In this document: one piece after another, positions 6,220-26,242 of the stretch
How positions within the stretch are numbered: the first letter of the stretch is position 1
Layout of the letters: each line of letters starts with the position of its first letter
Source of the DNA: a virus
Length of the DNA: 26,242 nt
Virus record (IMG/VR): IMGVR_UViG_3300046698_000263
Location: 1 to 26,242 of that record
Reading direction: 5' to 3' (one strand)
The notes under the pieces: model-generated
Databases searched by the model: none
What the model was told of the DNA's origin: nothing
The model's input: only the letters and a program-made list of their open reading frames with translations
Program-made: the position numbers and the translations under genes

Positions 6220-6222
6220 ACC

Positions 6223-9571: not shown

Positions 9572-9581
9572 CGCCAATCCC

Positions 9582-13082: not shown

Positions 13083-13115
13083 TGGAACAGCGAAGCGCGG
13101 AGGATGATTGGCCTC

Positions 13116-13132
13116 GCCCGCAGGCCGCGGGC
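13116..13132 (+). promoter_or_regulatory. GC-only hairpin in the capsid leader
   Basis: GCCCGC-AGGCC-GCGGGC forms a perfect 6-bp GC stem with a 5-base loop between the scaffold stop and the capsid ATG at 13159. It is followed by a T-rich stretch (cagtttgcaatcattttc) but not a classic U-tract. It could be a weak terminator, a processing site or a stabilising 5' structure for capsid mRNA. A capsid start at TTG 13108 would place it inside coding sequence. Confidence 0.4.
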
Positions 13133-13158
13133 AACAGTTTGCAATCATTTTCACAGCG

Positions 13159-14631
13159 ATGAGCTGGGACATCAATACACCCAATACAGGGACAGCCCTG
13201 GCCAACATGAGCCCGGATTCGGTCCGGATCCTGTGGCAAAAAATGGTCGACGTGTTCGACCAATCGGAAGACTTCTTCGCCCCCTTCGAGGGCGACAACA
13301 AGAAATCCCCCGTCCGCGTCATCAATGACACGGCGGTCGGCAAAGGTCTCAAATTCCGTATCACCTCCCGCGCCGGATACTTCGGCAAGGGCAAGAGCGG
13401 AGACGACCTGTTTGAAAACTCCACGGATTACGAGCCGGACCTGATTTCGTCGAACGAAGTGGATGCGGACTTCCTCCGCAATGCCACGTCGATCACGCAA
13501 CGGACTGACGAGTTCCTGGGCACCCAGAACGAGATCCGGAACGGGCAGGCTGAAGAGCTTGGCAAGTGGATGGGCCGCGAGAAATCCGCCCGCCTTGGCA
13601 TGCTGTACCGCCTGCGCGGCGGTTCGCAAAACCTGCTTATCGGCGGCGGCAAGTCCAATCAGGATCTCCTGAAGACGGCCGACGGTCTGGTCTACGCCGA
13701 CTTGCTTTACATGGGGCAAGCTCTCAAGCCGCTCGGCGGAACCCCCGCCGAAGTCGGAACGATCCGCGGCGTCAAGATCTACAAGTATCTGATGCTCGGA
13801 ACCACCCCCGGGTTGTTCAGCCTCAAGGCCGATTCGGATTATCAGGCCAAACTCAGGGACGCGATGCCGCGTGAGAAGTGGGACGAGAATCCGCTGTGGG
13901 CCGGCGGCTATGCGGAGATCGACGGGCACACGATTCGGGAGTTCAACCCGATCGACAACGACGGCGACGCTTGGGTCGGTTCCTTCTGGAACCCCAAGGC
14001 GTATCTGGGCGCTGCGATCAACGCCGGGACGGCGGTATTCAATGTCACCGGCGGCGGCGTCAATTCTGGAACCCGGGTCGATTATTTCCGGTTCTTCGAG
14101 AACTTCGCCTTCGAGTTCCTGCCGGCGGACATCTTCACGCCGACTTACGCCACGGCGTACTTCCTGATCGTCAACCCGAAGAACGCGGCAGTTGACCCGG
14201 GCAAGTTCGGCATGTACTCGTACACGACCGGCAACCAGGGCAATTACATCACGGTGCTGAATCGGCTGGGACCGAGCAACGCCGGCGGGATGGTCAGCAC
14301 GCTGGGCAGCGTGATCTGGAACAGCGGCGTGTGGGCGGGCCTGCACACGGATGTGCATCCGGTTGGTTCGACGATCATCCAATGCAACGCTTTCGGCGTT
14401 CCGTTCGGAGACACGATCATGACCGGATCCAATTCCGCGTTGCGCGGCTACGGGTCCATGCGGAACAAGCGTTCGGAGTGGTTGATTGAAGGCGGCTTCC
14501 AGATGCGGACGTTCATCACGTCGGTCTTCGGGCAAGCTCTCCGGAAGAACGTGAACGGCGTAATCCCGGGCTACGTCCGGCTGCGCCACGCGCTCAACTA
14601 TCCGGAGCTGGGTTTGCCTGTGGTCGTCTAG
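13159..14631 (+). CDS. Major capsid protein, N4-gp56-like
   Basis: From the ATG at 13159 this is a 490-residue protein. An early segment, GLKFRITSRAGYFGKGKSGD, then LFENSTDYEPD and NATSITQRTDEFLGTQNEIR, matches the pattern of N4-gp56-family (DUF4043-type) capsid proteins of podophages, where a 'GK.I.F....G..G.G..GD..LE' region begins the HK97-like core. Size and position after a scaffold gene agree. A TTG at 13108, four bases after GGAGG, could add 17 residues. I prefer the ATG because that extension is not capsid-like and contains the GC hairpin. Two hairpins bracket the gene, suggesting a stable, abundant message. The gene ends with TAG. Confidence 0.8.
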   Translation: MSWDINTPNTGTALANMSPDSVRILWQKMVDVFDQSEDFFAPFEGDNKKSPVRVINDTAVGKGLKFRITSRAGYFGKGKSGDDLFENSTDYEPDLISSNEVDADFLRNATSITQRTDEFLGTQNEIRNGQAEELGKWMGREKSARLGMLYRLRGGSQNLLIGGGKSNQDLLKTADGLVYADLLYMGQALKPLGGTPAEVGTIRGVKIYKYLMLGTTPGLFSLKADSDYQAKLRDAMPREKWDENPLWAGGYAEIDGHTIREFNPIDNDGDAWVGSFWNPKAYLGAAINAGTAVFNVTGGGVNSGTRVDYFRFFENFAFEFLPADIFTPTYATAYFLIVNPKNAAVDPGKFGMYSYTTGNQGNYITVLNRLGPSNAGGMVSTLGSVIWNSGVWAGLHTDVHPVGSTIIQCNAFGVPFGDTIMTGSNSALRGYGSMRNKRSEWLIEGGFQMRTFITSVFGQALRKNVNGVIPGYVRLRHALNYPELGLPVVV

Positions 14632-14654
14632 CAGGCATTCATGGGATGGAAAAC

Positions 14655-14682
14655 GGGGCGGCCGGTTTCGGCCGGTCGCCCC
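14655..14682 (+). terminator. Strong hairpin after the capsid gene
   Basis: An 11-bp stem (GGGGCGGCCGG pairing with CCGGTCGCCCC, one G-U pair) with a 6-base TTTCGG loop lies 23 bp after the capsid stop and 7 bp before the next ATG. The sequence that follows (TCACTTTA) is only a partial U-tract, so it may act as a leaky terminator or 3' stabiliser. Either would raise capsid expression over downstream genes. Confidence 0.65.
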
Positions 14683-14689
14683 TCACTTT

Positions 14690-15010
14690 ATGACACGGTT
14701 AATTATCTGGGTCGGCGGCCGCACCATCGTGCACGGCTTCAAGCGCCGGGGATTCCTCTGGTCACAATCCCACGGCTGTTTCATCTACCTGGGTCGCGAG
14801 TTGACGGATCGAGAATTCAACGGCGTCATCGACAAGGCGCTGCGGGAGGGAGAAGGCATGTTCCCGTCGGTGAAAGTCGTGGCTTTCTCGTCAGAGGCAG
14901 CCGCAGCCCCATCGATTACCGCCCAGCAAGCCGAAGAGATTCTGCAACGGTTCGCCCCAGAACGGCTAAAGAAGAAGCCGGGCCCCAAGCAGCTCGTCGA
15001 AGTCGACTAA
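14690..15010 (+). CDS. Small hypothetical protein after the capsid
   Basis: A 106-residue protein. It begins with a short beta-rich region (TRLIIWVGGRTIVHGFKRRG, SQSHGCFIYLG). A helical middle (LTDREFNGVIDKALREGEG) and a basic, Pro-containing tail (APERLKKKPGPKQLVEVD) follow. It sits between the post-capsid hairpin and the connector-like genes, 6 bp before the next ATG. It could be a minor head protein or a head-completion accessory. I recognise no family. A longer overlapping frame from 14641 has low-complexity Arg/Pro composition and is a shadow. Confidence 0.6.
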   Translation: MTRLIIWVGGRTIVHGFKRRGFLWSQSHGCFIYLGRELTDREFNGVIDKALREGEGMFPSVKVVAFSSEAAAAPSITAQQAEEILQRFAPERLKKKPGPKQLVEVD

Positions 15011-15016
15011 CTCCCA

Positions 15017-15742
15017 ATGCCACTTACCCTCGCAGCAGCCCAGAGCGATCTCCTCAGCAAGCTCGGCATTGAGGATGTCAGCGTTGCCACGGATCTGATG
15101 CAGCAGGACGTCATCATTGCCATCAACGGGGCGATGCAAACCCTGCAGAGCGCCGGCGAGGATTATTTCACCCGGCAAAAGCTCCTGCTCACTCTCGGGG
15201 TTGGAACGAGCGTTTATTCGATCGCTGGAGTTCAGGCTGTACTCGGCCCGGTCCGGCTGAACGATTCGATCCCGCTTCGCGCGCTCGAGTCCCGCGGTGA
15301 AATCGATCAGTTCGATAGGATTTTCCTTGGCGGAACAGACTATGGTTCGATCGCCGGCACGCCGATGGCGTACTGGGTCGAGTATCTGCGCCAAGGATCG
15401 GCCGGCAACATCCAGCAGGTCAACATCTGGCTGGCCCCTCCGACGGCAGCTTCCGTTTTGCCAGCCACGCTCGCAGTCGAGGTGGTCGACGCAGCCACTT
15501 CTTACTCGGCGGCGGATCTGGCGACCAATGCGTTGTTGCCAATCTCGCAAAACTACGGCGAATCGATCTTCCTACCGATCGCCCGCTATCTGATTACGAG
15601 GTCGAGCCAGTTTAGCCGGCCGGATATTCTGGCCGGACTGACGGCTGACTATCAATCCGCCATGCAACGGCTCGGGCTCTTTGGTGGATTCCCCAACGTC
15701 GACCAGAGCGGCACCAAGCCACCACGAAAGGTCCAGGCATGA
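15017..15742 (+). CDS. Head-tail adaptor/connector-like protein 1
   Basis: A 241-residue protein. The N-terminus (QQDVIIAINGAMQTLQSAGE, then YFTRQKLLLTLGVGTSVYSI) has the 'helix - aromatic - beta' layout of phage head-tail adaptor (gp4/gp6-like) proteins. These form a ring under the portal and bridge to the tail. The C-terminus returns to helix (LPIARYLITRSSQF ... LTADYQSAMQRLGLF). The following gene has the same architecture and appears paralogous. Its stop overlaps the next start (ATGA), so the two are coupled. The role is inferred from fold-like pattern and position after the capsid. Confidence 0.6.
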   Translation: MPLTLAAAQSDLLSKLGIEDVSVATDLMQQDVIIAINGAMQTLQSAGEDYFTRQKLLLTLGVGTSVYSIAGVQAVLGPVRLNDSIPLRALESRGEIDQFDRIFLGGTDYGSIAGTPMAYWVEYLRQGSAGNIQQVNIWLAPPTAASVLPATLAVEVVDAATSYSAADLATNALLPISQNYGESIFLPIARYLITRSSQFSRPDILAGLTADYQSAMQRLGLFGGFPNVDQSGTKPPRKVQA

Positions 15743-16647
15743 GTATTTCGACAGTCCAGCTTGCCGCTCGCGTTGCCCGCCGATCCCGCACCGGAGACGT
15801 CACCCGACTTTCTATGTCGGAGCAGGAGGATGTTATCGCTGCCTGCAATGGCGCGCTCCAGCGGCTCTTCAATGCGCTGCCGGCCTACTTCAAGGAACAG
15901 ACGCAGGGCTTCCTTCTGCCGGCGCCGCAGATCATCCAAGGCATCGGAGCCATCCAGTATGGCGTGACGCTCACCGGAATCGTCTTGGCCGCCAACCAGA
16001 TCGGCCAAACCATCGTGCTCGATGGCGATCAGGGGTGGAATCAGATCATGGCGATCGATCCGATTGCCCAGACAGTATCGCTGCTCAATCCCTTCATGGG
16101 CCCGACCGGGACAACCTCGGCCACGATCTACGGCAACGCGCTTTACTCGACCGATTACCCCTTCGACCGGATTATCGGCAATCCGATCTTCGCCAACGCC
16201 GCCCTCACGCCGCTCATGCGGACCGACATGATTCGGGCGAACGGCAACGATGCCAGTTGGATCTTCCAGCAGAGCGTCGGCCAGCCGCAAGCGTGGTGGA
16301 CCCAGGTATTCGGAGAGTCGCAGGGCAAGACTCCGCTCGTTGTCCTGCGCTTCGCGCCGGCGCCGGACCAAGCGTATGCCGTCAATGTCCGCCTCGCCTT
16401 CTGGCCGCGGCTTCTGACGCTCACTGATCTCCAGTCGGCGCGCCCGGTCTTCGTCCCCGATCAATTCATTCACCCATCCCTGATCCCGATGGCGATTCAG
16501 GAATTCATGCAATATCCCTCATTTCTCTCACGCAAGGATGAGAAACAGGTCGACCAAAAGGGCAAAGAGGGAGAGAAGTGGGCAAAGGATCAGCTCGGCC
16601 AAATCGGAGTTCCCAACAACCGCATCTACACACCAGTCGGATACTAA
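15739..16647 (+). CDS. Head-tail adaptor/connector-like protein 2 (paralogue of the preceding gene)
   Basis: A 302-residue protein starting in an ATGA overlap. Its N-terminus, EQEDVIAACNGALQRLFNAL then AYFKEQTQGFLLPAPQ, aligns with the upstream gene (DVIIAINGAMQTLQ ... YFTRQKLLL). Both end in a helix after a stretch of hydrophobic beta. It has about 60 more residues than its neighbour in the middle (Gly/Asn/Ile-rich). The tail is highly charged (KDEKQVDQKGKEGEKWAKDQ). Two adjacent related rings would suit a connector stack between portal and tail. The assignment is inferred; a tail-tube or nozzle subunit is the alternative. Confidence 0.6.
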   Translation: MSISTVQLAARVARRSRTGDVTRLSMSEQEDVIAACNGALQRLFNALPAYFKEQTQGFLLPAPQIIQGIGAIQYGVTLTGIVLAANQIGQTIVLDGDQGWNQIMAIDPIAQTVSLLNPFMGPTGTTSATIYGNALYSTDYPFDRIIGNPIFANAALTPLMRTDMIRANGNDASWIFQQSVGQPQAWWTQVFGESQGKTPLVVLRFAPAPDQAYAVNVRLAFWPRLLTLTDLQSARPVFVPDQFIHPSLIPMAIQEFMQYPSFLSRKDEKQVDQKGKEGEKWAKDQLGQIGVPNNRIYTPVGY

Positions 16648-16660
16648 CCATCATTTCACC

Positions 16661-16993
16661 ATGTCCACACGCCTCCTTGGAGTTGCACCAGAAGACAGAG
16701 CCCAGATCGTAGCGATCGGGAAAACCCCGTCCGGCAAAGTTGTCCTGCTCGCCGTCGACGAGTCGGGCGGTCTGATGGGCGGCGGCCACAGCGCCGGCCT
16801 GTTCATCAACGACACAGGGGCCCACACGGGCGCTTGGACTTCGTTCCAGGCCACCACCGCCACGGTCGGCACCTTTGTCGCGAGCAACATCACCGGGGCG
16901 ATGACAGGCATCACGGTGCCCGCCGGCGGAACCGTCTACGGCAATTTCACTTCGATCACGCTGGCAAGCGGAAGCGGCATTGCCTATGCCTGA
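16661..16993 (+). CDS. Small beta-rich virion protein (decoration-like)
   Basis: A 110-residue protein starting at ATG 16661, 13 bp after the previous stop. A hydrophilic N-terminus is followed by NDTGAHTGAWTSFQATTATV, then SNITGAM, PAGGTVYGNFTSITLASGSG and a terminal IAYA. From general knowledge, small phage proteins with 'G.HTG.W..IQ....A' and 'PAGT.I.G.FT.ITL.SG...AY' are common next to capsid or tail genes and are thought to be virion surface proteins. The match is by pattern only. The whole protein looks like a compact beta fold. Confidence 0.65.
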   Translation: MSTRLLGVAPEDRAQIVAIGKTPSGKVVLLAVDESGGLMGGGHSAGLFINDTGAHTGAWTSFQATTATVGTFVASNITGAMTGITVPAGGTVYGNFTSITLASGSGIAYA

Positions 16994-17118
16994 TGACCTC
17001 GCCCGACCTCAACCTCCTGCGCCAAAAGATTGGCATTGAATCAGGAGAGGACTTCAGGTGGGTGCACGAAATCCGTTTCTATCTAAATTCCGGAGGCTGT
17101 TATACGATCACCCTTGGA

Positions 17119-17143
17119 GGACGGAAAAACTTTGTTTCCGTCC
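17119..17143 (+). terminator. Hairpin between the structural and envelope modules
   Basis: GGACGGAAA and TTTCCGTCC are perfect 9-bp inverted arms with a 7-base loop, placed in a 220-bp gap (16994-17213) that I see no gene in. No U-tract follows, so termination would be inefficient; it may instead protect an mRNA end. A TACAAT at 17184-17189 upstream of the next gene could be a -10 box, but its -35 is weak. The gap is therefore a plausible transcriptional boundary. Confidence 0.5.
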
Positions 17144-17213
17144 GCTGGCTCCGGTCTCTACTTCATCTCTCTCGCTTAGACCGTACAATAGATCAACGAA
17201 AGAAATCCATCCC

Positions 17214-17633
17214 ATGAAAACCGCCAAACTGTCCTTCCTCGCGCTCATCTTCGTGGCGCTCGCCGTCTTAGCTCCTTCCGCCTGCGCCAGCACTGGGACG
17301 GCCGTTGTTGGGCATTCGGTGACGTTTTACCTGATAGCGATCAGCGGTACTACGCCTATAACCTACCAATGGCAGAAGAACGGGACGAACATCTCTGGAG
17401 CTACCGGAATTGCCCTGCCTGCTGGTGTGACCGGGATTGCCAACTCCGCTTACACCATCGCCAGCGTCTCGGCTGGTGACGCCGGCGTCTACACCGTTGT
17501 CGCCACCAATAACGCCGGATCGGCCACCTCTGACACGGCTACCTTGACTATCAACTCAGCCCCCAACGGTGCGGTCACTGGAGTCCAAGTGACGCAAAAC
17601 GGAGTCACCACACCCTACAACTTCAGCTCGTAG
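17214..17633 (+). CDS. Secreted immunoglobulin-like domain protein
   Basis: A 139-residue protein starting at ATG 17214. Residues 1-26 are a signal peptide (MKTAKLSFLALIFVALAVLA, then SACA before STG; signal peptidase I-type A-x-A site). A single Ig-like domain follows: YQWQKNGTNISGATG gives strand C with its Trp, and ASVSAGDAGVYTVVATNNAG gives the D-x-G-x-Y motif of strand F. Such domains are abundant in secreted Verrucomicrobiota proteins and also occur on phage virions. A cleavable signal peptide makes a virion role unusual and suggests export during infection. The second Ig cysteine is replaced, which is normal for bacterial Ig folds. It probably opens the envelope/lysis gene cluster. Confidence 0.75.
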   Translation: MKTAKLSFLALIFVALAVLAPSACASTGTAVVGHSVTFYLIAISGTTPITYQWQKNGTNISGATGIALPAGVTGIANSAYTIASVSAGDAGVYTVVATNNAGSATSDTATLTINSAPNGAVTGVQVTQNGVTTPYNFSS

Positions 17634-17637
17634 CGCC

Positions 17638-18156
17638 ATGCAAAAACAATCTTCAGTCCGCCGTTGGATTTTCTGGCTTTTTTGCGCGGTCTTCGCTGCC
17701 ACCGCCTATGGACAAGCAGTAGCAACGACAACGGGCGCCGCAGCCGCGACGACGCCGGCCTCAGCGCCCCCCCTGCCCTGGCAGCTCTCCCTAATTCCGA
17801 TCTTCACCCCCTTGATCATTCAGGCGGTGAAGATGTTCGTGCCTAAGATCCCGACGCTTTGGCTGCCGGTTATGGCTCCCTTCCTGGGCGCCTTGCTGGA
17901 CGTGATCAGCCACTACTCGACCGGCTCGAATATCTCGATCGGCACCGCGGCCGCGCTGGGCCTTGCCGGCGTTGGCGTGCGCGAAGTCGTTGACCAGATC
18001 CAGAAGGTCTCTCCTGCCGGACCCTCTGTTCCAACCGTTGCCACCGTCCCCATTCAGACATCCCCGCCGGCCACGGCTGTCAAAATCGTCCCTCTCGCCA
18101 CGGTCGTTGAAACGCCTGCCGTTACAACCCCTGGCCCAACGGTGACGCCTGCTTAG
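17638..18156 (+). CDS. Holin-like membrane protein
   Basis: A 172-residue protein beginning 4 bp after the Ig-like gene. An N-terminal hydrophobic segment, RRWIFWLFCAVFAATAYG, could be a signal peptide (site near AYG-QA) or a membrane anchor. Two more hydrophobic segments follow (about residues 50-70, LSLIPIFTPLIIQAVKMFV, and 78-92, LWLPVMAPFLGALLDVI), with a third, Gly/Ala-rich one at 100-115. The tail (from about 125) is Pro/Val/Thr-rich and disordered. Small multi-span proteins in this position are commonly holins, which permeabilise the inner membrane at lysis. The membrane call is firm; holin is inference from size and neighbours. Confidence 0.62.
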   Translation: MQKQSSVRRWIFWLFCAVFAATAYGQAVATTTGAAAATTPASAPPLPWQLSLIPIFTPLIIQAVKMFVPKIPTLWLPVMAPFLGALLDVISHYSTGSNISIGTAAALGLAGVGVREVVDQIQKVSPAGPSVPTVATVPIQTSPPATAVKIVPLATVVETPAVTTPGPTVTPA

Positions 18157-18193
18157 CTTCCCTTCTGCAGCTCCAACGTTAATCCATCAACCC

Positions 18194-18652
18194 ATGAGAA
18201 ATTCCAATCGCTACATCCCAGTTCTGCTCCTCGCGGCTTTCGCCTTCGCGCTCGCCGGCTGCCCAGCCACGTCCAAGGTCACGCTCGCTCCGGGCGGTGC
18301 TTACACCGACCCCGTGATCTTCCAAGCCGACAAGTCCATCGACCAAGCCATCGTCGCCATGGACGGATTTGTCGCGTGGCAAAGCGCCAATGCCACCTTC
18401 CTCGCCCAATGGCCGGAGATCGCCGTGCTGGCGAAAAGCATATCCACCAACGAGGGTCAGTGGGTGCGCGATGCCTACGCCGCCCGCGATGCTTATATTG
18501 CTGCTGCCGACGCCTACAAGGCGGCCGGGGCCAACGCTGACGGCACCGCTAAGACCGCAGCTCAAACTAAGCTGGATGGGCTTGTCGCGGCCCTCGTCAG
18601 CGTCACTACCAACGTCGCTGCCTTCCGAACTGCCCACGCCGGGGCGCAGTAA
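18194..18652 (+). CDS. Phage-encoded lipoprotein
   Basis: A 152-residue protein with a good lipoprotein signal. A basic start (MRNSNR) and a hydrophobic core lead to the lipobox LAGC (about residues 20-23). The mature part is helical and Ala/Asp-rich (IDQAIVAMDGFVAWQSANAT, DAYAARDAYIAAADAYKAAG), consistent with a periplasmic helical rod. In a lysis setting it could be an outer-membrane spanin (Rz1 type), but it is longer than typical Rz1 and is not Pro-rich. Superinfection exclusion is another known role of phage lipoproteins. It lies 37 bp after the holin-like gene. Confidence 0.7.
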   Translation: MRNSNRYIPVLLLAAFAFALAGCPATSKVTLAPGGAYTDPVIFQADKSIDQAIVAMDGFVAWQSANATFLAQWPEIAVLAKSISTNEGQWVRDAYAARDAYIAAADAYKAAGANADGTAKTAAQTKLDGLVAALVSVTTNVAAFRTAHAGAQ

Positions 18653-18688
18653 CGCCGGTCAACCGCAACCTAGCCAATATCTCACGTC

Positions 18689-18940
18689 ATGAATATCACT
18701 GCTGAACAGATCACCGAGATCGCCAACGCGCTCGGAGCCGCCGCCGCCCTCTTCGTTCCCGGTTCCGCCGCTGTCATCGCGGCTGCCGAGGGTATTATTT
18801 CCCTGGTCGACAACACCCTGCTGCCGATCATCCAGAGCTTCGAAGGGGAAGAGGCATCCGTCGCCGAACAGGCTTTGGTCGCCGCCCGGACGGTTGCAAA
18901 CGAGAAGCGGTTCGGCGCTCCGCCCGCTCCGCATAACTGA
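18689..18940 (+). CDS. Small hydrophobic/amphipathic protein
   Basis: An 83-residue protein. The first half is strongly hydrophobic (IANALGAAAALFVPGSAAVI, then AAAEGIISLVDNTLLPII) and could be one long or two short membrane helices. The second half is charged helix ending APPAPHN. This resembles small class II-like holins or antiholins in size and layout, but I cannot separate that from an amphipathic helical protein. It sits 36 bp after the lipoprotein and 6 bp before the next small membrane gene, within the same rightward cluster. Confidence 0.55.
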   Translation: MNITAEQITEIANALGAAAALFVPGSAAVIAAAEGIISLVDNTLLPIIQSFEGEEASVAEQALVAARTVANEKRFGAPPAPHN

Positions 18941-18946
18941 TCTCCG

Positions 18947-19093
18947 ATGATCATCCTGCTCGCCCTGTCCACCGGGTTTGTCGTAGGCGCCGGGGCGAGT
19001 TTTTTGTGCCTCAAGTGGAGGATTCAGAATCTTGCCTTTGATCTGATGCGTGCCAAAGCTGACCTTGCCGCCGAGAAATCCCGACGCCCATGA
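18947..19093 (+). CDS. 48-residue single-span membrane protein
   Basis: A short frame from ATG 18947 to TGA 19093. The N-terminal 22 residues are hydrophobic (IILLALSTGFVVGAGASFL). A basic junction (CLKWR) and a charged helix (DLMRAKADLAAEKSRRP) follow. It has one N-terminal membrane anchor with a short soluble tail. The stop overlaps the next start as ATGA, and its own start is 6 bp after the previous stop, which supports translation. Neighbours are all membrane proteins. It could be a lysis regulator or an inner-membrane spanin-like anchor, but it is too short to span the periplasm alone. Confidence 0.6.
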   Translation: MIILLALSTGFVVGAGASFLCLKWRIQNLAFDLMRAKADLAAEKSRRP

Positions 19094-19662
19094 GCCCAGA
19101 AGAGAAACAAGTGATAGAAGATCTGCGCGACTACTTCACCAAGCAGATCGACGGCGTGCGCGAGTTGATTGGCGAGCGTGACCGGCTTTACACTGATCGG
19201 TTCAATGCGCAGGAGAAGGCAGTACTGGCCGCGCTGGCCAGCGCGAAGGAAGCAACCATGAAGGAGGAGGCTTCCTCAGATGCAAAGTTCAAAAGCGTCA
19301 ACGAGCTGCGGGCATTGGCCAACGACATCCTGAACAAGGCCATGACCCGGCTGGAGGCGGAGAGTCGGTTTGCCGCGCTGGCGGAAAAGATGGAGGCGGC
19401 GGCGAAATCCAATCAGGAGAAGATAGAGTCCGCAATTTCTGTCTGGGATAAGCGCCATAATGAAGTGGTGGACCGACAGAGTGCTACGGATAAGACTCTT
19501 GTAGCGATGAGCAGCGAAAAGGCCGGGGCGAAAACTCAGGCGGTTGAAACCAAGGACAACACGGCGCGCATCATGTCCATCGTCGTCGGCGTGATCGTGA
19601 TTGCCCAGTCCTTCTGGAATTTGCTCAGCCCGGTCATCATCAAAGGGCTCCTGTCCAAATGA
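19090..19662 (+). CDS. Coiled-coil protein with a C-terminal membrane anchor
   Basis: A 190-residue protein starting in an ATGA overlap. Residues 1-155 are almost entirely charged helix (ERDRLYTDRFNAQEKAVLAA, EAESRFAALAEKMEAAAKSN) and predict a long coiled coil. A single hydrophobic segment (about 160-182, MSIVVGVIVIAQSFWNLL) ends the chain, giving a tail-anchored topology. Small phage proteins with an 'ERDRLY..RF..Q..AV..AL..A' helix are common and uncharacterised. Its stop overlaps the next gene (ATGA), which has the mirror-image layout with an N-terminal anchor, so the pair may interact through their coiled coils. Confidence 0.65.
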   Translation: MSPEEKQVIEDLRDYFTKQIDGVRELIGERDRLYTDRFNAQEKAVLAALASAKEATMKEEASSDAKFKSVNELRALANDILNKAMTRLEAESRFAALAEKMEAAAKSNQEKIESAISVWDKRHNEVVDRQSATDKTLVAMSSEKAGAKTQAVETKDNTARIMSIVVGVIVIAQSFWNLLSPVIIKGLLSK

Positions 19663-20718: not shown

Positions 20719-20916
20719 CTAGTGCAGGCGCGGCACTCGGACGGCGTTGGCATCACCCAAGATGCCGAAAGCCGAAAGCAGCCAGAGAACGACGGCGATG
20801 ATCACCACGACGTTGATGATCGTTTTGATCGGCTGGGCCATGGGGATGTAGGTGTTCACAAGCCACAGCAAAACGCCCACGACGATCAGGACAACAACCA
20901 GCGAGATAAGGCTCAT
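20719..20916 (-). CDS. Two-span small membrane protein (Thivi_2564-like)
   Basis: From ATG 20916 this is a 65-residue protein with two hydrophobic segments separated by a short Pro-containing loop: SLISLVVVLIVVGVLLWLV, then NTYIPMAQPIKTIIN, then VVVIIAVVLWLLSAFGIL. This fits the small membrane family often named Thivi_2564 after its first member ('LIVVGL.LWLIN.YIPM...IK.ILN.VV.I.V..WLL..FG'). I make that match by memory of the pattern. The family's function is unknown; in a lysis region a holin role is plausible. An alternative ATG at 20955 would add 13 residues. Confidence 0.68.
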   Translation of the reverse strand: MSLISLVVVLIVVGVLLWLVNTYIPMAQPIKTIINVVVIIAVVLWLLSAFGILGDANAVRVPRLH

Positions 20917-21054
20917 AGTGCCCGCAGGGTATCCCAGCCGCTCGCCGAATGACATGGGGTATGCGCCTACTAGGTGACGGTGCATCGCATCTGATCGGCA
21001 GCGCCCCACACGACAAGGGCTTCTACAACCAGCAATCAAGCTGGACCTACCTTA

Positions 21055-21429
21055 TTAATCACCGTCACCCAGAGATTTTGTATATGCGGCTCTGACACGG
21101 CGCGCATACCTGACGGCGCTGTCTGGGATCTCGCGCCGGGCGAGCTTCGTGATTCCTAGCTTCCAGCACAGCGCCTCAGTCCAAATGCTGTCCGGCATCC
21201 CGATGGCCGCCAGCCGCTTCCTGTTGTCGGCCAGCAGCCAGAACGGATCGCCGTGGCAGGCCGCGCGCATGGCCGGCGTGAGCTGCACCGGGCCGGTCTC
21301 CCCGCACGAGCCCACGGCTTCCGGATGGGCACCCGTCTCGACGGAGGCAATCGCACGCATCAACCGCGCCTCATCGATCTGAGCGCGGCAGGAGACGGCG
21401 AGAAGTAGAAGTATGGCTAGGCGGATCAT
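21055..21429 (-). CDS. Secreted lytic-transglycosylase-like protein (candidate endolysin)
   Basis: From ATG 21429 this is a 124-residue protein. A signal peptide (MIRLAILLLLAVSCRA, then QID) leads to a short domain with ARLMRAIASVETGAHPEAVG and CGETGPVQLTPAM. That resembles the SLT/lysozyme-like pattern 'I...ES..NP.A.G..GA.G..Q.TP.M', with Glu31 (VETG) in the catalytic position. It would cleave peptidoglycan glycan strands in the periplasm after Sec export. The domain is short relative to typical SLT domains, so activity is uncertain. The start overlaps the stop of a zinc-ribbon reading frame (ATGA). It faces the holin-like cluster from the other strand. Confidence 0.62.
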   Translation of the reverse strand: MIRLAILLLLAVSCRAQIDEARLMRAIASVETGAHPEAVGSCGETGPVQLTPAMRAACHGDPFWLLADNRKRLAAIGMPDSIWTEALCWKLGITKLARREIPDSAVRYARRVRAAYTKSLGDGD

Positions 21430-21536
21430 TCCATGAAGCTGATGCAGTTGGGAGTCTGGCAATGCGCGTGGACGTGACCGTTGTAGCTCGCCTGAGACAG
21501 GTGGAGTTTGCCGCCGCACACCGGGCAAGCAACAAT
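21426..21536 (-). CDS. Zinc-ribbon cistron directly after an in-frame TAG (ATT start or readthrough)
   Basis: This 36-codon frame encodes IVACPVCGGKLHLSQASYNG then HVHAHCQTPNCISFME. That is a clear CxxC...Cx4C zinc ribbon of a type common in small phage proteins. There is no ATG, GTG or TTG before the first cysteine. The codon after the upstream gene's TAG is ATT, in the same frame. Either ATT is the start, the TAG is sometimes read through (giving a 145-residue fusion), or a frame has decayed. The stop overlaps the ATG of the next gene as ATGA, which argues that ribosomes translate it. The domain call is solid; the initiation mechanism is open. Confidence 0.55.
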   Translation of the reverse strand: MVACPVCGGKLHLSQASYNGHVHAHCQTPNCISFME

Positions 21537-21863
21537 CTAAGCCTTTCCGATTGGCAGCTTTTCGCGCCATGCCTTGATGAACGGGCTCGCCTTTGTGATC
21601 ATGGCAATGGACCGCTCAACCGAGTCCGCACGGGCCTCTGCGTGTTCCCGTGTGTTCCGTATCCACTTCGGGCAATACTTCAGTGGGTCGTCAAGCAGAT
21701 GCCCTTCGATGCACGGCGCCCACTTCATCCTTTGGCCGGGCACAGGCACGCATTGAATCTTGTCAATCGGCATTCCAGCTTTGCAGCCTTTACCTCGCGG
21801 GCGTGGGTCGTAGTGCTGGCAATACTGCATGTCGAAGGCTATGGTTTCTTCTCGGTCTTTCAT
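21537..21863 (-). CDS. Cysteine-rich phage protein with a C-H-Y motif
   Basis: A 108-residue protein. The N-terminal half has YCQHYDPRPRGKGCKAGM, then IQCVPVPGQRM, PCIEGH and YCPKW: six spaced cysteines typical of a small zinc-binding phage protein ('C.HY......C.AG.......P C.......C...'). The C-terminal half is charged helix (REHAEARADSVERSIAMITK). The ATG overlaps the stop of the short ORF 21860-21928 (ATGA). The gene ends with TAG immediately followed, in frame, by a zinc ribbon. A second in-frame Met 11 codons in (MQYCQHY) is an alternative start. Confidence 0.66.
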   Translation of the reverse strand: MKDREETIAFDMQYCQHYDPRPRGKGCKAGMPIDKIQCVPVPGQRMKWAPCIEGHLLDDPLKYCPKWIRNTREHAEARADSVERSIAMITKASPFIKAWREKLPIGKA

Positions 21864-21928
21864 AGGAATTGGTGGTCAATCTGGGCGCAGGCCGGCAGGG
21901 CGGTCAGGAGGAGGATGGCGAGTCGCAT
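21860..21928 (-). CDS. 22-residue signal-peptide-like ORF
   Basis: The ORF encodes MRLAILLLTALPACAQID plus four residues, then TGA overlapping the next ATG. It is almost entirely a signal peptide with an ACA-Q cleavage site. It closely matches the signal peptide of the transglycosylase-like gene 430 bp downstream (MIRLAILLLLAVSCRAQID), including the QID after the predicted cut. It is probably a duplicated start of that gene that lost its domain, kept as a coupling leader for the Cys-rich gene; a tiny secreted peptide or a chance frame is also possible. Confidence 0.45.
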   Translation of the reverse strand: MRLAILLLTALPACAQIDHQFL

Positions 21929-21938
21929 AGAAAGGGTC

Positions 21939-21970
21939 GATCTAGCGCAGGCTTTGAGCCCAGCTAGATC
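21939..21970 (-). terminator. Hairpin at the end of the poly(Gly-Leu) gene
   Basis: GATCTAGC (21939-21946) and GCTAGATC (21963-21970) are perfect 8-base inverted arms. Inside them GGCT-TTG-AGCC adds a second short stem. On the minus strand the structure covers the stop codon of the poly(Gly-Leu) gene and is followed by CGACCCTTTCTAT. It could terminate or attenuate the leftward transcript before the endolysin-type genes. The U-tract is poor. Confidence 0.45.
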
Positions 21971-22200
21971 GCGTCGAATTTACCGAGACCCAGACCAAGA
22001 CCGAGACCCAGACCAAGACCCAGACCGAGACCCAGACCAAGACCGAGACCCAGACCAAGACCGAGACCCAGACCGAGACCGAGACCCAGACCCAGACCCA
22101 GACCAAGACCCAGACCAAGACCAAGACCGAGACCGAGACCCAGACCCAGACCGAGACCCAGACCGAGACCGAGACCAAGACCGAGACCAAGAACGATCAA
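21964..22200 (-). CDS. Poly(Gly-Leu) repeat protein
   Basis: A 78-residue frame starting at TTG 22200 (IVL), then about 35 Gly-Leu dipeptides, ending GKFDAI. In this frame each repeat is GGT-CTN. Across the 34 perfect hexamers the only variable base is the third base of the Leu codon, where every change is silent, and the rare CTA codon never appears. The other five frames would give mixed residues, so this frame is the one preserved. Low-complexity Gly-rich proteins are known beside small phage genes, but I know none that is pure Gly-Leu. A hydrophobic repeat of this length might insert in membranes or self-assemble. The start codon and function are uncertain. Confidence 0.55.
   Translation of the reverse strand: MIVLGLGLGLGLGLGLGLGLGLGLGLGLGLGLGLGLGLGLGLGLGLGLGLGLGLGLGLGLGLGLGLGLGLGLGKFDAI
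21985..22188. repeat. Hexamer array, 34 perfect NAGACC units
   Basis: Thirty-four consecutive units of NAGACC (204 bp) with no interruption. Only the first base varies: G 13 times, C 13, A 8, T never. A degenerate unit (AAGAAC) follows at the right end. There is no longer-period copy of blocks obvious by eye. The array probably expands and contracts by slippage. On the minus strand it codes for (Gly-Leu)n. Confidence 0.95.
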
Positions 22201-22224
22201 AGCCGGATCGTAGAATAGATGCTG

Positions 22225-22590
22225 TCATTTTTGACTGGCCGGAAGTTCGGCGTTGAGGATCACAGCATCCACAATGCTGCCGCGCCCGATGATGACATTC
22301 GCATCGGAAGGGAACGGCTCGATTTCATTGAACTTGCCGGTTTTGAGCGCATCGGAAAATCGCCCATCGTCGGCGATCCAGCAGCATTTCTCCAATACCA
22401 GTTCGCCGGGGTGAACCGCAATCAACAGGCCGGTGTAATGGTGCGTCACCGTGCGAATGAAGTAGGGTTTGCCGACTTCGTAGGGTGCAGTGGCGTTGGT
22501 CGGCAGCGCGGAGAGCGCGGGCGATTGGGAGAAAAGAGCGGCGAGTTGTTTCGCCTCTCCGATAGTGAGATCATCTAGGTTGATTTTCAT
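22225..22590 (-). CDS. Conserved small phage protein (DUF6948-like pattern)
   Basis: A 121-residue protein: MKINLDDLTIGEAKQLAALF, then YEVGKPYFIRTVTHHYTGLL, LVLEKCCWIADDGRFSDALK and NVIIGRGSIVDAVIL. The order (helix, a 'YFIRTVT.HYTG' strand, a 'W.AD.GRF.DAL' segment, a C-terminal strand) matches a small phage family I know from many siphophage and podophage genomes, near DUF6948. The exact family is from memory and uncertain. It is likely a beta-barrel nucleic-acid or protein-binding module. The poly(Gly-Leu) frame follows 24 bp after its TGA and in the same frame. Confidence 0.68.
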   Translation of the reverse strand: MKINLDDLTIGEAKQLAALFSQSPALSALPTNATAPYEVGKPYFIRTVTHHYTGLLIAVHPGELVLEKCCWIADDGRFSDALKTGKFNEIEPFPSDANVIIGRGSIVDAVILNAELPASQK

Positions 22591-22632
22591 GGGAGGAAAT
22601 TGGTTGTCACAGCGCAGAGCAGGGGGAGCGGG

Positions 22633-22857
22633 TCATTTCCGTTTATCGTCATCTTGAATTACGGTCGCCGTCTCACATCGGATGGCTCGGGTGTTCCAGT
22701 AGCGGATTGCTCCGCTGCGCGTCCGATGGGATTTGGTTTCCGCTTCGCAGTATTCGTTTGCGCACGCGACCCAACAGGCGTCGGGGTTGGTGCGGCAGAT
22801 TTCGACTTCAAGGCTGCCGCAGAACGGGCAGCTCAGGATTGTTTCCGGTATTTTCAT
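22633..22857 (-). CDS. Lar-like zinc-finger protein (restriction alleviation family)
   Basis: A 74-residue protein with SCPFCGSLEVEIC, then ACWVACANEYCEAE and SGAIRYWNTRA. The layout CPFCGS - about 15 residues - W-V-x-C-x4-C - AI-x-x-WN-x-R is the Lar family signature. Lar of the Rac prophage modulates the host EcoKI restriction-modification system. Most phage homologues are untested, so an anti-restriction role is a family-based guess. The start lies 3 bp after the stop of a 21-residue ORF, within a leftward coupled chain. Confidence 0.72.
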   Translation of the reverse strand: MKIPETILSCPFCGSLEVEICRTNPDACWVACANEYCEAETKSHRTRSGAIRYWNTRAIRCETATVIQDDDKRK

Positions 22858-22860
22858 AAG

Positions 22861-22926
22861 TCATTTCCGTTTCAGGCTGGGGTGGATCGATGCGACGCAG
22901 GCGAGGGCGAGGAGGGCGAACTTCAT
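22861..22926 (-). CDS. 21-residue hydrophobic ORF
   Basis: The ORF encodes MKFALLALACVASIHPSL plus three basic residues. The hydrophobic core resembles a signal peptide or a tiny membrane peptide. Its ATG overlaps the stop of the ImmA/IrrE-like gene (ATGA), and its TGA is 3 bp before the Lar-like start. The spacing suggests translational coupling between the two genes. It could equally be a chance frame, since 21 codons is short. Confidence 0.38.
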   Translation of the reverse strand: MKFALLALACVASIHPSLKRK

Positions 22927-23123
22927 TGGAGGGAGAGTTGACCGAGGCGGAAAGCGAGGACGGCCGGGTCGACGCCGAACTTGCGCGCGAGCTTCGCGAC
23001 GGCCTCCCGGTCGAAGAGATCGACGCCGCCGACCTTGACGAGCTCGGCCCGGACGAACTTCTCCGGGAGGAGGAGCTCCATGGCAAAGGCGTTCGCTTCC
23101 GCTTCGATCGAGGGCTCGTTCAT
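22923..23123 (-). CDS. ImmA/IrrE-like protein lacking the catalytic motif
   Basis: From ATG 23123 this is a 66-residue protein: EAEANAFAMELLLPEKFVRA, then GVDLFDREAVAKLARKFGVD and VLAFRLGQL. This is the C-terminal part of ImmA/IrrE metallopeptidases (the 'E..AN.FA..LLMP' helix and the 'LA..F.VS..A...RL..L' end). The HExxH zinc site, normally 30-40 residues before this segment, is absent, so it should not be a peptidase. The frame is open upstream but the residues are Arg/His/Asn-rich and not ImmA-like. The start overlaps the preceding gene's stop (ATGA). It may be a regulatory or decoy remnant. Confidence 0.7.
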   Translation of the reverse strand: MNEPSIEAEANAFAMELLLPEKFVRAELVKVGGVDLFDREAVAKLARKFGVDPAVLAFRLGQLSLQ

Positions 23124-23320
23124 GGTGATTGCTCCGATTGGTCGAGATAGGTCCGTATTTCGTCGGTTTGGTTTGGTGTGATTTCGTGAGTGAGTAGACG
23201 CTTCGATCTTCCGTTGTACTTCGGGCCAGCCAGCCGAAACCCGCTGCCGCCTTCGTGCTCGATGCATATTTGCAGCGCGCCGGTCCATCCGTCCTTATCG
23301 ACGCAGAGGAAAGTTTTCAT
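23120..23320 (-). CDS. Small hypothetical protein
   Basis: A 66-residue protein: MKTFLCVDKDGWTGALQICI, then EHEGGSGFRLAGPKYNG and THEITPNQTDEIRTYLDQSE. It has a beta-rich first two-thirds and a helical end, consistent with a compact alpha/beta fold. It starts 2 bp after the previous stop and ends in an ATGA overlap with the ImmA/IrrE-like gene. The residue pattern is protein-like but I recognise no family. Confidence 0.6.
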   Translation of the reverse strand: MKTFLCVDKDGWTGALQICIEHEGGSGFRLAGPKYNGRSKRLLTHEITPNQTDEIRTYLDQSEQSP

Positions 23321-23322
23321 GC

Positions 23323-23553
23323 TCAGTCTTTCCCCGTCTCCTTACCCGGCTGCGCGGCGCGATAGGCAATTAGCACTTCTCGCAGTTTAAGGTGAAGCGG
23401 ACTTCCGCTTGCCACGTCGCTGACATTCAGGGCCGTAAGAGTGCATTGCGCCCAATTGTAAACTTCGGTTAGCGCAGCCACCTCGGAGCGGAGTCGGATT
23501 AGTTCTGCGGTCAGGTCCACCCACTGATTTGTGCTTTCGTCGTAGATTTTCAT
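23323..23553 (-). CDS. Small hypothetical helical protein
   Basis: A 76-residue protein: MKIYDESTNQWVDLTAELIR, then LRSEVAALTEVYNWAQCTLT and HLKLREVLIAYRAAQPG. After a short beta-like start (NQWVDLT) it is helical with regular heptads, so a small coiled-coil dimer is likely. An AAGGAG motif lies about 11 bases before the ATG, one of the better ribosome sites in this block. It ends 2 bp before the next start. Confidence 0.6.
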   Translation of the reverse strand: MKIYDESTNQWVDLTAELIRLRSEVAALTEVYNWAQCTLTALNVSDVASGSPLHLKLREVLIAYRAAQPGKETGKD

Positions 23554-23559
23554 GATTGT

Positions 23560-23745
23560 TTAGTCTCCTTCCCCGCCTGCGCGGTGGTCGCGCTTGGCCT
23601 CACGATCTGCTGATTTGATTGCCCTAACGTTCTTATCGTACTGTTTGCGGCAATCGGGTCCGCAGAAAAGATGATAGGCATTCCTGCCGAGAAACTTCTT
23701 CCGGCATTCGAGACAGAAGCAGACCGTAGCGTTGGTGCGTTTCAT
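23560..23745 (-). CDS. Small zinc-finger protein, copy 1
   Basis: A 61-residue protein: NATVCFCLECRKKFLGRNAY, then FCGPDCRKQYDKN and a basic helical tail. The CxxC ... CxxxC arrangement (Cys11, 14, 28, 32) with a following Arg/Lys helix is a treble-clef or zinc-ribbon-like finger, as in small MYM/FCS-type or ribosomal-S14-like folds. A second copy lies at 25456-25701, nearly identical over the first 45 residues. The start overlaps the previous gene's stop (ATGA). It is likely a nucleic-acid-binding or protein-binding accessory factor. Confidence 0.66.
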   Translation of the reverse strand: MKRTNATVCFCLECRKKFLGRNAYHLFCGPDCRKQYDKNVRAIKSADREAKRDHRAGGEGD

Positions 23746-23812
23746 GTCAGTCTTTCAGCCGCGCTAACGAACGCCGCGGTGGTTGGGCAGTTCTCGTTGT
23801 GCGTGGTCACGG
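23585..23812. repeat. Direct repeat, copy 1 (228 bp)
   Basis: This segment recurs at 25541-25762 in the same orientation. I count about seven substitutions and one 6-bp indel across the alignment. It covers most of the zinc-finger gene and the C-terminal end of the gene before it, including the ATGA junction between them. The flanking DNA on both sides is unrelated, so this is a segmental duplication. Confidence 0.93.
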
Positions 23813-23939
23813 CTTCGGCAAGTTGCGATTGAAGCTGCTCGAAATCGGCGTCGGTGTGCGTGCTTTGCTTAAGCTCGGTGTCGGTGTCGGTGTCGATTGC
23901 GATCTGGACACAGCCAGTTGGTTCTTGTTTTGTCGTCAT
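23742..23939 (-). CDS. Small acidic Thr/Asp-rich protein
   Basis: From ATG 23939 this is a 65-residue protein: MTTKQEPTGCVQIAIDTDTD, then TELKQSTHTDADFEQLQSQL and THNENCPTTAAFVSAAERLT. An acidic Asp/Thr repeat (DTDTDTE) precedes a helical C-terminus. The last 20 residues are shared with the 20-residue ORF at 25698-25760 through the segmental duplication. It starts 5 bp after the PAPS-reductase-like gene and ends in an ATGA overlap with the zinc-finger gene. Function is unknown. Confidence 0.55.
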   Translation of the reverse strand: MTTKQEPTGCVQIAIDTDTDTELKQSTHTDADFEQLQSQLAEAVTTHNENCPTTAAFVSAAERLT

Positions 23940-23943
23940 AAAA

Positions 23944-24729
23944 TCACTCCACGGAGCAGCCGCAGCCGCCCCAATCGTCCCTGTCGAAGCTTTCGCCGGC
24001 CTCGATCCGACTGCGAAGCATCCCAAGCGTCAGGGTCTTCTTCTTACCGTCGCCTCGCCTGTCGTTCATCACGCTGTAGTTCCCGACGATGGCCCGGATC
24101 TTCTCCTCCTCGGCCTCATGGAAGGCGTAGAGGTCCGGCATCATCTTGAGCAGGTGGGCGAAATGCGCCTGTCCTGCCTTGATGCAGAACCCGCCGCAGT
24201 TGTTGTGCGGGAAGCCCATGGCGTAGAGCCGAGGTAGCCTAAAGCCCAGCGCCACCCACTCGCGCTGCATCCTGCATTTGTCCCAGATTGGCTCCTCCAT
24301 CATGGGCGCTTTAACCGTCCACGGCGCGAACACCTTGACCATCCCCCTGCGTTGGGAATTGCCGGTCATCCGGTGCTCCTCAGTCCAATCCAAGCCGAGG
24401 TAGAAGGTGTGGGTTTCCGGCGTGGTGTGCTCGAAGCGCCAGGCGTCCATCAGCGCCCTCTTGAGGATGCGAGAGCACACATCCAACCCCGAGCGCCCCA
24501 TCACTTCCTCGTCTCTCATAACCTGCCAGGGAGTGCGCCCATCCGATAGACGGGTTATCGGCACTCCGAGGGTATCGCACGCCTCCTGATTGAAGCGATA
24601 TAGGTCCTCGTCCTCCATGTTGGTATCGGCAAATAGGAGAGTCACGTTCTCCCTCCCGTGCTGAGCAATGACCCGGTGCGCTGCCCAGAAAGAGCAGAGG
24701 CCACCTGAGAACTGGACTACGTGCTTCAT
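23944..24729 (-). CDS. PAPS-reductase/ATP-pyrophosphatase family protein
   Basis: A 261-residue protein. The N-terminal PP-loop motif is FSGGLCSFW (residues 7-15), followed by TLLFADTNMEDEDLYRF (30-46), the pattern of PAPS reductases and related alpha-hydrolases that adenylate a substrate. Cys85 (VCSRILKR), Cys178 and Cys182 (NNCGGFCIKAG) and Cys256/258 (GGCGC) could bind an iron-sulfur cluster or carry sulfur. Phage members of this group are common; proposed roles include sulfur assimilation and nucleic-acid modification (DndC-like phosphorothioation), neither shown here. No dnd or other cysteine genes are in the window. Its start overlaps the stop of a 15-residue ORF. Confidence 0.8.
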   Translation of the reverse strand: MKHVVQFSGGLCSFWAAHRVIAQHGRENVTLLFADTNMEDEDLYRFNQEACDTLGVPITRLSDGRTPWQVMRDEEVMGRSGLDVCSRILKRALMDAWRFEHTTPETHTFYLGLDWTEEHRMTGNSQRRGMVKVFAPWTVKAPMMEEPIWDKCRMQREWVALGFRLPRLYAMGFPHNNCGGFCIKAGQAHFAHLLKMMPDLYAFHEAEEEKIRAIVGNYSVMNDRRGDGKKKTLTLGMLRSRIEAGESFDRDDWGGCGCSVE

Positions 24730-24773
24730 AGGTGCGTGCCGCGCAATGGCGGGCTGTTGGCGGGTGGGGTCAT
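24726..24773 (-). CDS. 15-residue linker ORF with 4-bp overlaps at both ends
   Basis: The ORF encodes MTPPANSPPLRGTHL. Its ATG overlaps the stop of the upstream gene and its TGA overlaps the start of the PAPS-reductase-like gene, both as ATGA. The peptide has no obvious structure. It most likely carries ribosomes from one gene to the next. A chance frame cannot be excluded, but a double ATGA fit is uncommon. Confidence 0.4.
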   Translation of the reverse strand: MTPPANSPPLRGTHL

Positions 24774-25075
24774 GGTATTAATGCGGAGTCAGGGGGCGTA
24801 AACGGGACATAGGTCAAAGCGTTGGCAAGCTCTCGCTTTAGGCGTTCGTTCTCTGCGCGGAGTGCATCGAGGTCTGCGGGTGAATACCCCGGTTTCCAAT
24901 CGAGATAATCCTTCGCTGGGTCGGTGCAGTTGTCTTTGAGCACTTGATAGCCAAATACAACACGGGCATAAGCCGGTGGCCGGAGTTCAGGGTGGAGAAA
25001 CTTCTCCTCATCCTGCTTTTGCAGCCAACGCATGAGGTCCTCAACTTCTTGGTCAGATGCTTTTGCTTGTTTCAT
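24770..25075 (-). CDS. Small hypothetical protein with a coiled-coil tail
   Basis: A 101-residue protein: KASDQEVEDLMRWLQKQDEE, then AYARVVFGYQVLKDNCTDPA, SPADLDALRAENERLKREL and a Pro-containing end. The C-terminal third is a good short coiled coil. It starts and ends in ATGA overlaps with a 24-residue and a 15-residue ORF respectively. Function is unknown; the DLDALRAENERLKRE heptads suggest a dimeric accessory protein. Confidence 0.58.
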   Translation of the reverse strand: MKQAKASDQEVEDLMRWLQKQDEEKFLHPELRPPAYARVVFGYQVLKDNCTDPAKDYLDWKPGYSPADLDALRAENERLKRELANALTYVPFTPPDSALIP

Positions 25076-25146
25076 GGCAAAATCTTACCTTTCAGGCTGG
25101 GCGACCGGCGCGGTTTGGTAACGCGGGCTTTGGGGGTCTTGGTCAT
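25072..25146 (-). CDS. 24-residue very basic ORF
   Basis: The ORF encodes MTKTPKARVTKPRRSPSLKG plus four residues, with nine Lys/Arg in 24. The stop overlaps the ATG of the next gene (ATGA). GGGAGGAAAG lies about 20 bases upstream. The 52 bp between it and the next gene upstream (25147-25198) hold no other frame I can support. It may be a nucleic-acid-binding micropeptide or a coupling leader. Confidence 0.4.
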   Translation of the reverse strand: MTKTPKARVTKPRRSPSLKGKILP

Positions 25147-25198
25147 GGTGAAAGGTTTGGGAGTCTTTCCTCCCTGTCAGCCGGTTAAGGCAGCCGGG

Positions 25199-25447
25199 TC
25201 ATTTGCCGGCGGGTCGCTTATCCAATCCCTTTTCGGCGAGGATAGCGGCGACATCATCGACGTGGAGACAATCGCACATGCAAGCGCCTTGGGCGGCGCT
25301 TTGAATCACTGCGATTTGTCCGTTGCAATAATCGTTGCCGGGAGTCGCGCTGTGCAGGACTCCGAAGGCGTTGATCATTCCGGTGGTCAGATCCAAGGAG
25401 ACGATCTTGTCTCCGTTCTTTGCTTCTCTTCCGTTTCTGTAGTGCAT
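25199..25447 (-). CDS. Small hypothetical protein
   Basis: From ATG 25447 this is an 82-residue protein: MHYRNGREAKNGDKIVSLDL, then MINAFGVLHSATPGNDYCNG and QIAVIQSAAQGACMCDCLHV. The 'YRNGREAKNGDKI' start and 'GNDYCNGQIAVI' strand resemble a small beta-barrel protein found in phages, recognised by pattern only. The CMCDC cluster is unusual. It starts 8 bp after the upstream stop. Confidence 0.58.
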   Translation of the reverse strand: MHYRNGREAKNGDKIVSLDLTTGMINAFGVLHSATPGNDYCNGQIAVIQSAAQGACMCDCLHVDDVAAILAEKGLDKRPAGK

Positions 25448-25455
25448 GGCAAAAT

Positions 25456-25701
25456 TCACTGATCTTCTTCCAACCCGCAGTCCACCGACTGGCGACCTCC
25501 GCGCAGATAATGAACGGGGCCGCCGATCGTTTTTGCGCATTGGTCGCGCTTGGCCTCACGCTCTGCTGAGTTGCTTGCCCTAACGTTCTTATCGTACTGT
25601 TTGCGGCAATCGGTTCCGCAGAAAAGCTGATAGGCATTCCTGCCGAGAAACTTCTTCCGGCATTCGAGACAGAAGCAGACCGTAGCGTTGGTGCGTTTCA
25701 T
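25456..25701 (-). CDS. Small zinc-finger protein, copy 2 (with a different tail)
   Basis: An 81-residue protein. The first 45 residues match copy 1 at 23560-23745 with three differences (H25Q, P30T, then IK to SN), and the CxxC...CxxxC finger is intact in both. The tail differs and is longer (CAKTIGGPVHYLRGGRQSVD, then CGLEEDQ) because the duplication ends inside the gene. The start overlaps the stop of the 20-residue ORF (ATGA). Two co-expressed copies suggest a dosage effect or divergence of function. Confidence 0.64.
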   Translation of the reverse strand: MKRTNATVCFCLECRKKFLGRNAYQLFCGTDCRKQYDKNVRASNSAEREAKRDQCAKTIGGPVHYLRGGRQSVDCGLEEDQ

Positions 25702-25762
25702 GTCAGTCTTTCAGCCGCGCTCACGAACGCCGCGGCGCAGTTCTCGTTGTGCGTGGTCACGG
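25541..25762. repeat. Direct repeat, copy 2 (222 bp)
   Basis: Same orientation as 23585-23812, about 1.95 kb away, with about seven substitutions and a 6-bp deletion near 25735. The copied part of the 65-residue gene is cut to its last 20 codons here. That fragment is now joined to an unrelated upstream gene through a new GTGA overlap. Confidence 0.93.
25698..25760 (-). CDS. 20-residue ORF left by the segmental duplication
   Basis: The ORF encodes MTTHNENCAAAFVSAAERLT from a GTG that overlaps the upstream stop (GTGA). Its TGA overlaps the ATG of zinc-finger copy 2. It equals the C-terminus of the 65-residue protein at 23742-23939, minus two residues. It is most simply a duplication remnant kept because it links two genes translationally, but a short functional peptide is possible. 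Confidence 0.45.
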   Translation of the reverse strand: MTTHNENCAAAFVSAAERLT

Positions 25763-26107
25763 TTTCCTCTCCCCTCCCGCCGAGCCGATGGCGGCGTCGA
25801 TAGCGGCATTGAACGTCGTGCCCTCGCCTTCTGGGCGTGACCAGTCCTTGTCGTAGCAAATCCAGTGGTTTGGGTGCCCGTTTGCCCCGAATTCGCACGA
25901 CAGTCTCCATCCGTTTGCGGCGACCGCTTCCAACCGCTCCCGGTCGCGCCGCAGGTCGATGTTCTCGGCGACCGATGCCGAGAGAGCGTCCTCCAAGTCT
26001 AGATGCTGCAATTCGTAGGTTGCCATCATGCAGTCAACAGACGTGTCGTTGAGTTCGGCGATTTGACGCCGTAACATGTCTTTCTTCTGTTCTCGCGTGA
26101 TGCTCAC
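25757..26107 (-). CDS. Hypothetical protein with helical N-terminus and C-terminal domain
   Basis: A 116-residue protein from GTG 26107: TREQKKDMLRRQIAELNDTS and ELQHLDLEDALSASVAENID form a helical first half. A second half with WRLSCEFGANGHPNHWICYD and EGEGTTFNAAIDAAIGSAGG follows. The end resembles a small phage domain of the 'W.....A.IDAA' kind seen in many short phage proteins, matched by pattern only. The GTG overlaps the stop of the partial gene at the window edge (GTGA). Confidence 0.58.
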   Translation of the reverse strand: MSITREQKKDMLRRQIAELNDTSVDCMMATYELQHLDLEDALSASVAENIDLRRDRERLEAVAANGWRLSCEFGANGHPNHWICYDKDWSRPEGEGTTFNAAIDAAIGSAGGERKP

Positions 26108-26241
26108 GTTGCACGCTCCTTCCCCGCCTGCGCGGCGGTCGCGGTTGTGGCGAGCAATTGGCGAACTTCGGCGTGCAACTTGTCGAGATCGACGAAACCG
26201 CAGTCAGTAACATAGCCGGTTTCATCTGCGTTTTCTGCTAC
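26104..26241 (-). CDS. C-terminal part of a gene entering at the right edge
   Basis: A minus-strand frame open from the window end to TGA at 26104 encodes 45 residues: ENADETGYVTDCGFVDLDK, then LHAEVRQLLATTATAAQAG and a basic end. It is helical and protein-like, and its stop overlaps the GTG of the next gene. The start lies outside the window. A competing Arg/Ser-rich frame here looks like a shadow. Confidence 0.5.
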   Translation of the reverse strand, partial: VAENADETGYVTDCGFVDLDKLHAEVRQLLATTATAAQAGKERAT

Positions 26242-26242
26242 G

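Follow-up and report, generated by a model that had tools for sequence, protein, structure and literature searches.

An in-frame amber codon, probably derived, interrupts the gene of a double-zinc protein in an IMG/VR phage record

The 26,242 nucleotides of IMG/VR virus record IMGVR_UViG_3300046698_000263 (positions 1 to 26,242; this whole stretch is called the window) contain an accessory gene for a two-zinc protein in which codon 109 is an amber codon, probably derived, that cuts the frame and is present either in the phage DNA or as a consensus error. The simplest and most likely account of this codon is a recent nonsense mutation or an error in the consensus, rather than a new mode of reading the gene. 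In an ordinary host, translation would be expected to stop at the TAG, and the product would lack the C-terminal zinc ribbon. The change would be recent, since the ribbon is still largely intact.

The features of the locus are collected in Table 1. After the TAG, the same frame reads ATT GTT GCT TGC and continues for 36 codons in all to a TGA; on inspection of the frame, ATG, GTG and TTG were absent ahead of the first ribbon cysteine. An earlier note made from the sequence had described the gene ending in TAG (21537-21863), the 36-codon ribbon continuing its frame, the ATGA overlap and the ATT as next codon, and all of these were confirmed. An open run of 36 codons is by itself not rare. The ribbon residues match phrog_31210 (E 1.2e-6; 8.6e-8 in a search made on this record), and a single 148-residue protein of another record (IMGVR_UViG_3300049573_000185, L002) holds both halves, with a Glu codon at the TAG position; the ribbon is therefore regarded as more than a chance frame.

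Table 1. Positions of the interrupted zinc gene and adjoining features in the window.
Feature	Position	Strand	Remarks
Secreted lysozyme/transglycosylase-like gene, 124 aa	21055..21429	(-)	weak profile matches only
Stretch replacing 228 bases of L106 (3861-4088)	21148..21874	(-)	zinc gene and most of a different lysozyme-like allele
ATGA overlap	21426..21429	(-)	ribbon-frame TGA (21428-21426) and ATG of downstream gene
C-terminal zinc ribbon, 36 codons	21429..21536	(-)	phrog_31210; C113, C116, C135, C140
In-frame TAG, codon 109	21537..21539	(-)	Glu/Gly/Asp column in 33/33 aligned relatives
N-terminal part, 108 codons	21540..21863	(-)	CxH...C...C...C zinc domain and long helix; ATG at 21863
22-codon frame, relic 5' end (signal peptide) of resident lysozyme-like gene	21860..21928	(-)	

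Relatives were collected with a degenerate ribbon-core pattern (36 loci) and by an alignment search (A1; 44 loci), the two sets overlapping. An upstream stop is visible in 30 of the pattern-found loci, and all 30 are open through the junction; in the remaining six the frame extends to the edge of the locus. All 44 IMG/VR loci (40 distinct) have 63 or more open codons ahead of the first ribbon cysteine, and none of them has a stop at the junction. In an alignment of the window sequence with 33 full-length double-zinc relatives, 23 of these have Glu, nine Gly and one Asp at the position of the TAG. The window protein clusters with L045 (support 98) and next with L044 (96), both of which have Glu there; L045 also gives the best match to each half (51.4% for the first half, 69.4% for the ribbon), and the read-through sequence is 55% and 48% identical to its two nearest relatives. 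The open frame in the relatives and the sense codon in the TAG column argue for a single inherited unit and not for two cistrons. The homologue comparison proposed in the earlier note thus gave a frame open across the junction in 44 of 44 viral loci and in three of three bacterial contigs, in which the ribbon likewise extends an upstream open frame; it bore out the view that the two halves form a single double-zinc protein, some 145 residues long, and the description of the ribbon as a cistron apart from its upstream gene was not upheld, the relatives being single genes.

Two kinds of variant were found among the relatives. In L046 (3951-4288) the first zinc domain is lost and helix and ribbon are kept (ATG at 4103, 60 aa), and in L074-L077 and L080 the same ribbon is joined to a different, shorter first half; the ribbon is therefore seen as a recombinable module. 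No gene context common to the two nearest relatives was found: L045 is adjoined by a DNA methyltransferase-like frame, and L044 has a small terminase subunit in its vicinity.

All 34 sequences have eight cysteines in common, four in the first half (C15, C27, C51, C64) and four in the ribbon (C113, C116, C135, C140), which are predicted to bind zinc. The read-through sequence was modelled with confidence (pLDDT 91.6, pTM 0.74), and in the model the first domain is followed by a helix (72-100) and then by the ribbon strands (108-112, 119-124, 131-135, 142-144). Codon 109 would accordingly fall within the first ribbon strand and not between domains. A natural division into two proteins should run between the helix and the ribbon rather than through a strand. 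From the alignment and the fold model, the zinc gene is read as a single ancestral gene that has acquired an amber codon.

How such a codon might arise was considered by comparison with a near-identical record (G001). Over window 3108-19156, eight isolated SNPs were found, seven of them nonsynonymous, which indicates that unpurged or erroneous changes are present. Stops were computed to arise from 3.3% of random single substitutions, and 0.15 to 0.35 nonsense changes are estimated to be expected from substitutions of this kind in 20 kb of genes; with the G001 SNPs and this stop fraction, one nonsense change is unsurprising. The zinc site itself is missed by G001, the alignment of which extends only to window 19156 with no match to 20900-26242, and the zinc gene was unmatched in 13 of 13 searched records of capsid relatives. 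A separate cluster of changes relative to G001 lies at window 8655-8741, within the gene at 8046-9194, and includes two compensating single-base gaps; it represents a short frame-shifted stretch in either G001 or the window record.

The ribbon retains all four cysteines and 15 of the 18 columns with conservation of 90% or more. Changes affect three conserved ribbon residues, as many as in L072; of the 34 sequences, L079 alone has more. The ratio of ribbon to body branch length (1.27) ranks 28 of 34 and is not an outlier. This pattern shows no clear decay and no clear constraint either, which is what a recent change would leave; to judge from the sequences, the intact cysteines, the 15 of 18 columns and the unexceptional branch would be compatible, too, with continued synthesis of the ribbon. 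The intact ATGA overlap with the downstream gene likewise counts against the preferred reading.

Record IMGVR_UViG_3300037184_000086 (L106) is 95 to 97% identical to the window on its right side as far as position 21875, and identity returns at window 21101-21147 (91%); between these flanks, L106 has 228 bases and the window 727. At this site, L106 has one intact lysozyme-like gene and no zinc gene. The window keeps the first 18 codons of the L106-type lysozyme-like gene, now within the 22-codon frame, the TGA of which overlaps the zinc-gene ATG (ATGA, 21863-21860); its own lysozyme-like allele differs from that of L106, and the last part of this allele matches L106 again. The zinc gene would either have arrived by allele exchange together with a lysozyme-like allele or have been lost by exchange from L106. 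Since L106 is without it, the gene is considered accessory or dispensable for such phages. ATGA overlaps at both joints suggest coupled translation; the downstream lysozyme-like gene may then receive less translation, so that the TAG would also lower the lysozyme-like product.

Three other features were observed near this locus. Just upstream, at window 21982-22192, about 35 hexamers (ACCCAG/ACCGAG/ACCAAG type) form an array that differs in length in L106 and is thus variable between near relatives. A Lar-like restriction alleviation gene is located at window 22633-22857 (PF14354, E 7.1e-9, above the cut-off), and L106 has a copy of equal length. A phosphoadenosine phosphosulfate reductase-like gene is located at window 23944-24729 (phrog_424, E 6.1e-39).

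The preferred reading of a derived amber codon includes a base error in the metagenome consensus, with the phage itself encoding an intact 145-residue protein; this sub-case is possible, if on the unlikely side. A single record spans the site, one base explains the whole effect, and the isolated SNPs relative to G001 are mostly nonsynonymous, as errors would be; the frames of the long neighbouring genes, however, are intact. The earlier note had mentioned a sequence error only as a ground for rejecting its own reading, and the reading that now fits best is such an error or a derived nonsense change.

The use of TAG elsewhere in the window was examined next to that of relatives. The major capsid gene ends in TAG, and 15 of 17 relatives examined have TAA at the same place, the other two, with TAG, being the near-identical G001 and a distant one; the statement of the earlier note that TAG is a normal stop in this gene is supported by the 15 TAA relatives. 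For the portal gene, the sole relative found was G001. On the phage side, the search for an amber suppressor proposed in the earlier note revealed no tRNA gene, either in the window or in the scanned 30 kb of G001 (two stretches, L105 and L086); these sequences may not cover the genome fully. Some phages with recoded stops carry no suppressor tRNAs of their own, according to the part of PMC10607447 consulted. For these two reasons, the capsid stop is given more weight than the absence of tRNA genes. Inspection of 39 frames, most of which had no relative to test with, revealed no further recognisable split gene.

Amber readthrough or host suppression, by which most chains would end at 108 residues and a fraction would be extended to the 145-residue double-zinc protein, is possible, without specific support, and is judged distinctly unlikely. 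The ribbon cysteines and core motif are intact, the ancestral form is the long form, and the lack of suppressor tRNAs in some recoding phages is compatible with this mode; it is opposed by the sense codons of all 44 relatives, the lack of a tRNA gene in the stretches scanned, the working TAG stop of the capsid gene, and the alteration of the three conserved ribbon residues, more than in 31 of 33 other members. As the working mode put forward in the earlier note, readthrough or suppression was not sustained: the stop is absent from all relatives, the scan gave no suppressor tRNA, and only one gene is recognisably split. That the amber codon is a true switch kept by the phage, with partial readthrough in the host giving both the short ribbon-less and the full form and setting the level of the lysozyme-like product through the ATGA, is very improbable.

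Reinitiation at the ATT after the TAG, which would make the ribbon alone as the second of two cistrons, was also proposed in the earlier note and has hardly any likelihood. A weak purine stretch is located upstream (duplex energy -4.1; random window 20-mers: median -2.9, 25th percentile -4.8), but it encodes Gly-Lys, a pair of residues that near relatives have as well. The helix-and-ribbon form of L046 indicates that the ribbon can manage without the first half, yet the ATG of L046 precedes the helix. None of the relatives begins at or near the ATT, which in the model lies within the first ribbon strand, and initiation there was ruled out on the relatives and the fold model. Recoding of TAG as an amino acid throughout the phage, already thought unlikely in the earlier note and suggested by the one conserved gene that is TAG-interrupted, is of negligible probability and was ruled out by the capsid stop and the lack of a second recognised split gene.

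Searches for the function of the zinc protein gave few leads. Profile searches against solved structures gave no match, and a Foldseek search of the PDB gave nothing (best E 1.4); against viral models, one 101-residue protein of similar fold was found (F8TVB0, E 2.5e-3, probability 1.00, TM 0.67 by target). The ribbon had no match in named phage genomes. A single weak hit of the fused L002 protein, under capsid and decoration genes of an Aeromonas phage (E 0.3), was taken as chance. A role of the family as an adaptor on nucleic acid or protein is a guess.

Among known systems, phAss-1 (PMC10607447) likewise has TAG within a conserved phage gene; in the part of that work consulted, 41 ORFs are TAG-interrupted and suppressor tRNA genes are present, whereas here one gene is interrupted and none was found. 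In-frame stops in bacterial genes are described in the consulted part of PMC7918605 as widespread, usually short-lived and in many cases artefacts, and as over-represented in the phage/transposon class. The stops considered there resemble the present one, a lone in-frame stop that is a single substitution away from a sense codon in a gene intact apart from it; that survey, in the same part, counted stops common to two or more species, whereas the present stop is known from one record. Trm112-, Top1- and Lar-like zinc ribbons (PF03966, PF01396, PF14354) have CxxC-type knuckles in common with the window zinc protein, but the matches are weak and all below curated cut-offs, as was every profile match of this protein. 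The closest likeness is to phrog_31210 (PHROGs v4) and the fused IMG/VR family (L002/L040, L044, L045 and others), which share with the window protein the ribbon core (CPxC, LHLSQ, YNGHVH, C, C, ME) and, where they are full-length, also the N-terminal zinc domain and the helix. The window sequence has the family ribbon (four invariant cysteines and the NGH core) and the in-frame N-terminal domain and helix, and its frame is interrupted; it differs from the fused relatives, which have a sense codon at the TAG site, and in the three changed ribbon residues. One base can thus mimic a two-cistron or readthrough system, which the relatives and the fold model resolve. Were readthrough true, it would provide a compact link of a zinc protein to a lysis-type gene; the relatives found here indicate that double-zinc phage proteins form an unnamed family that is widespread.
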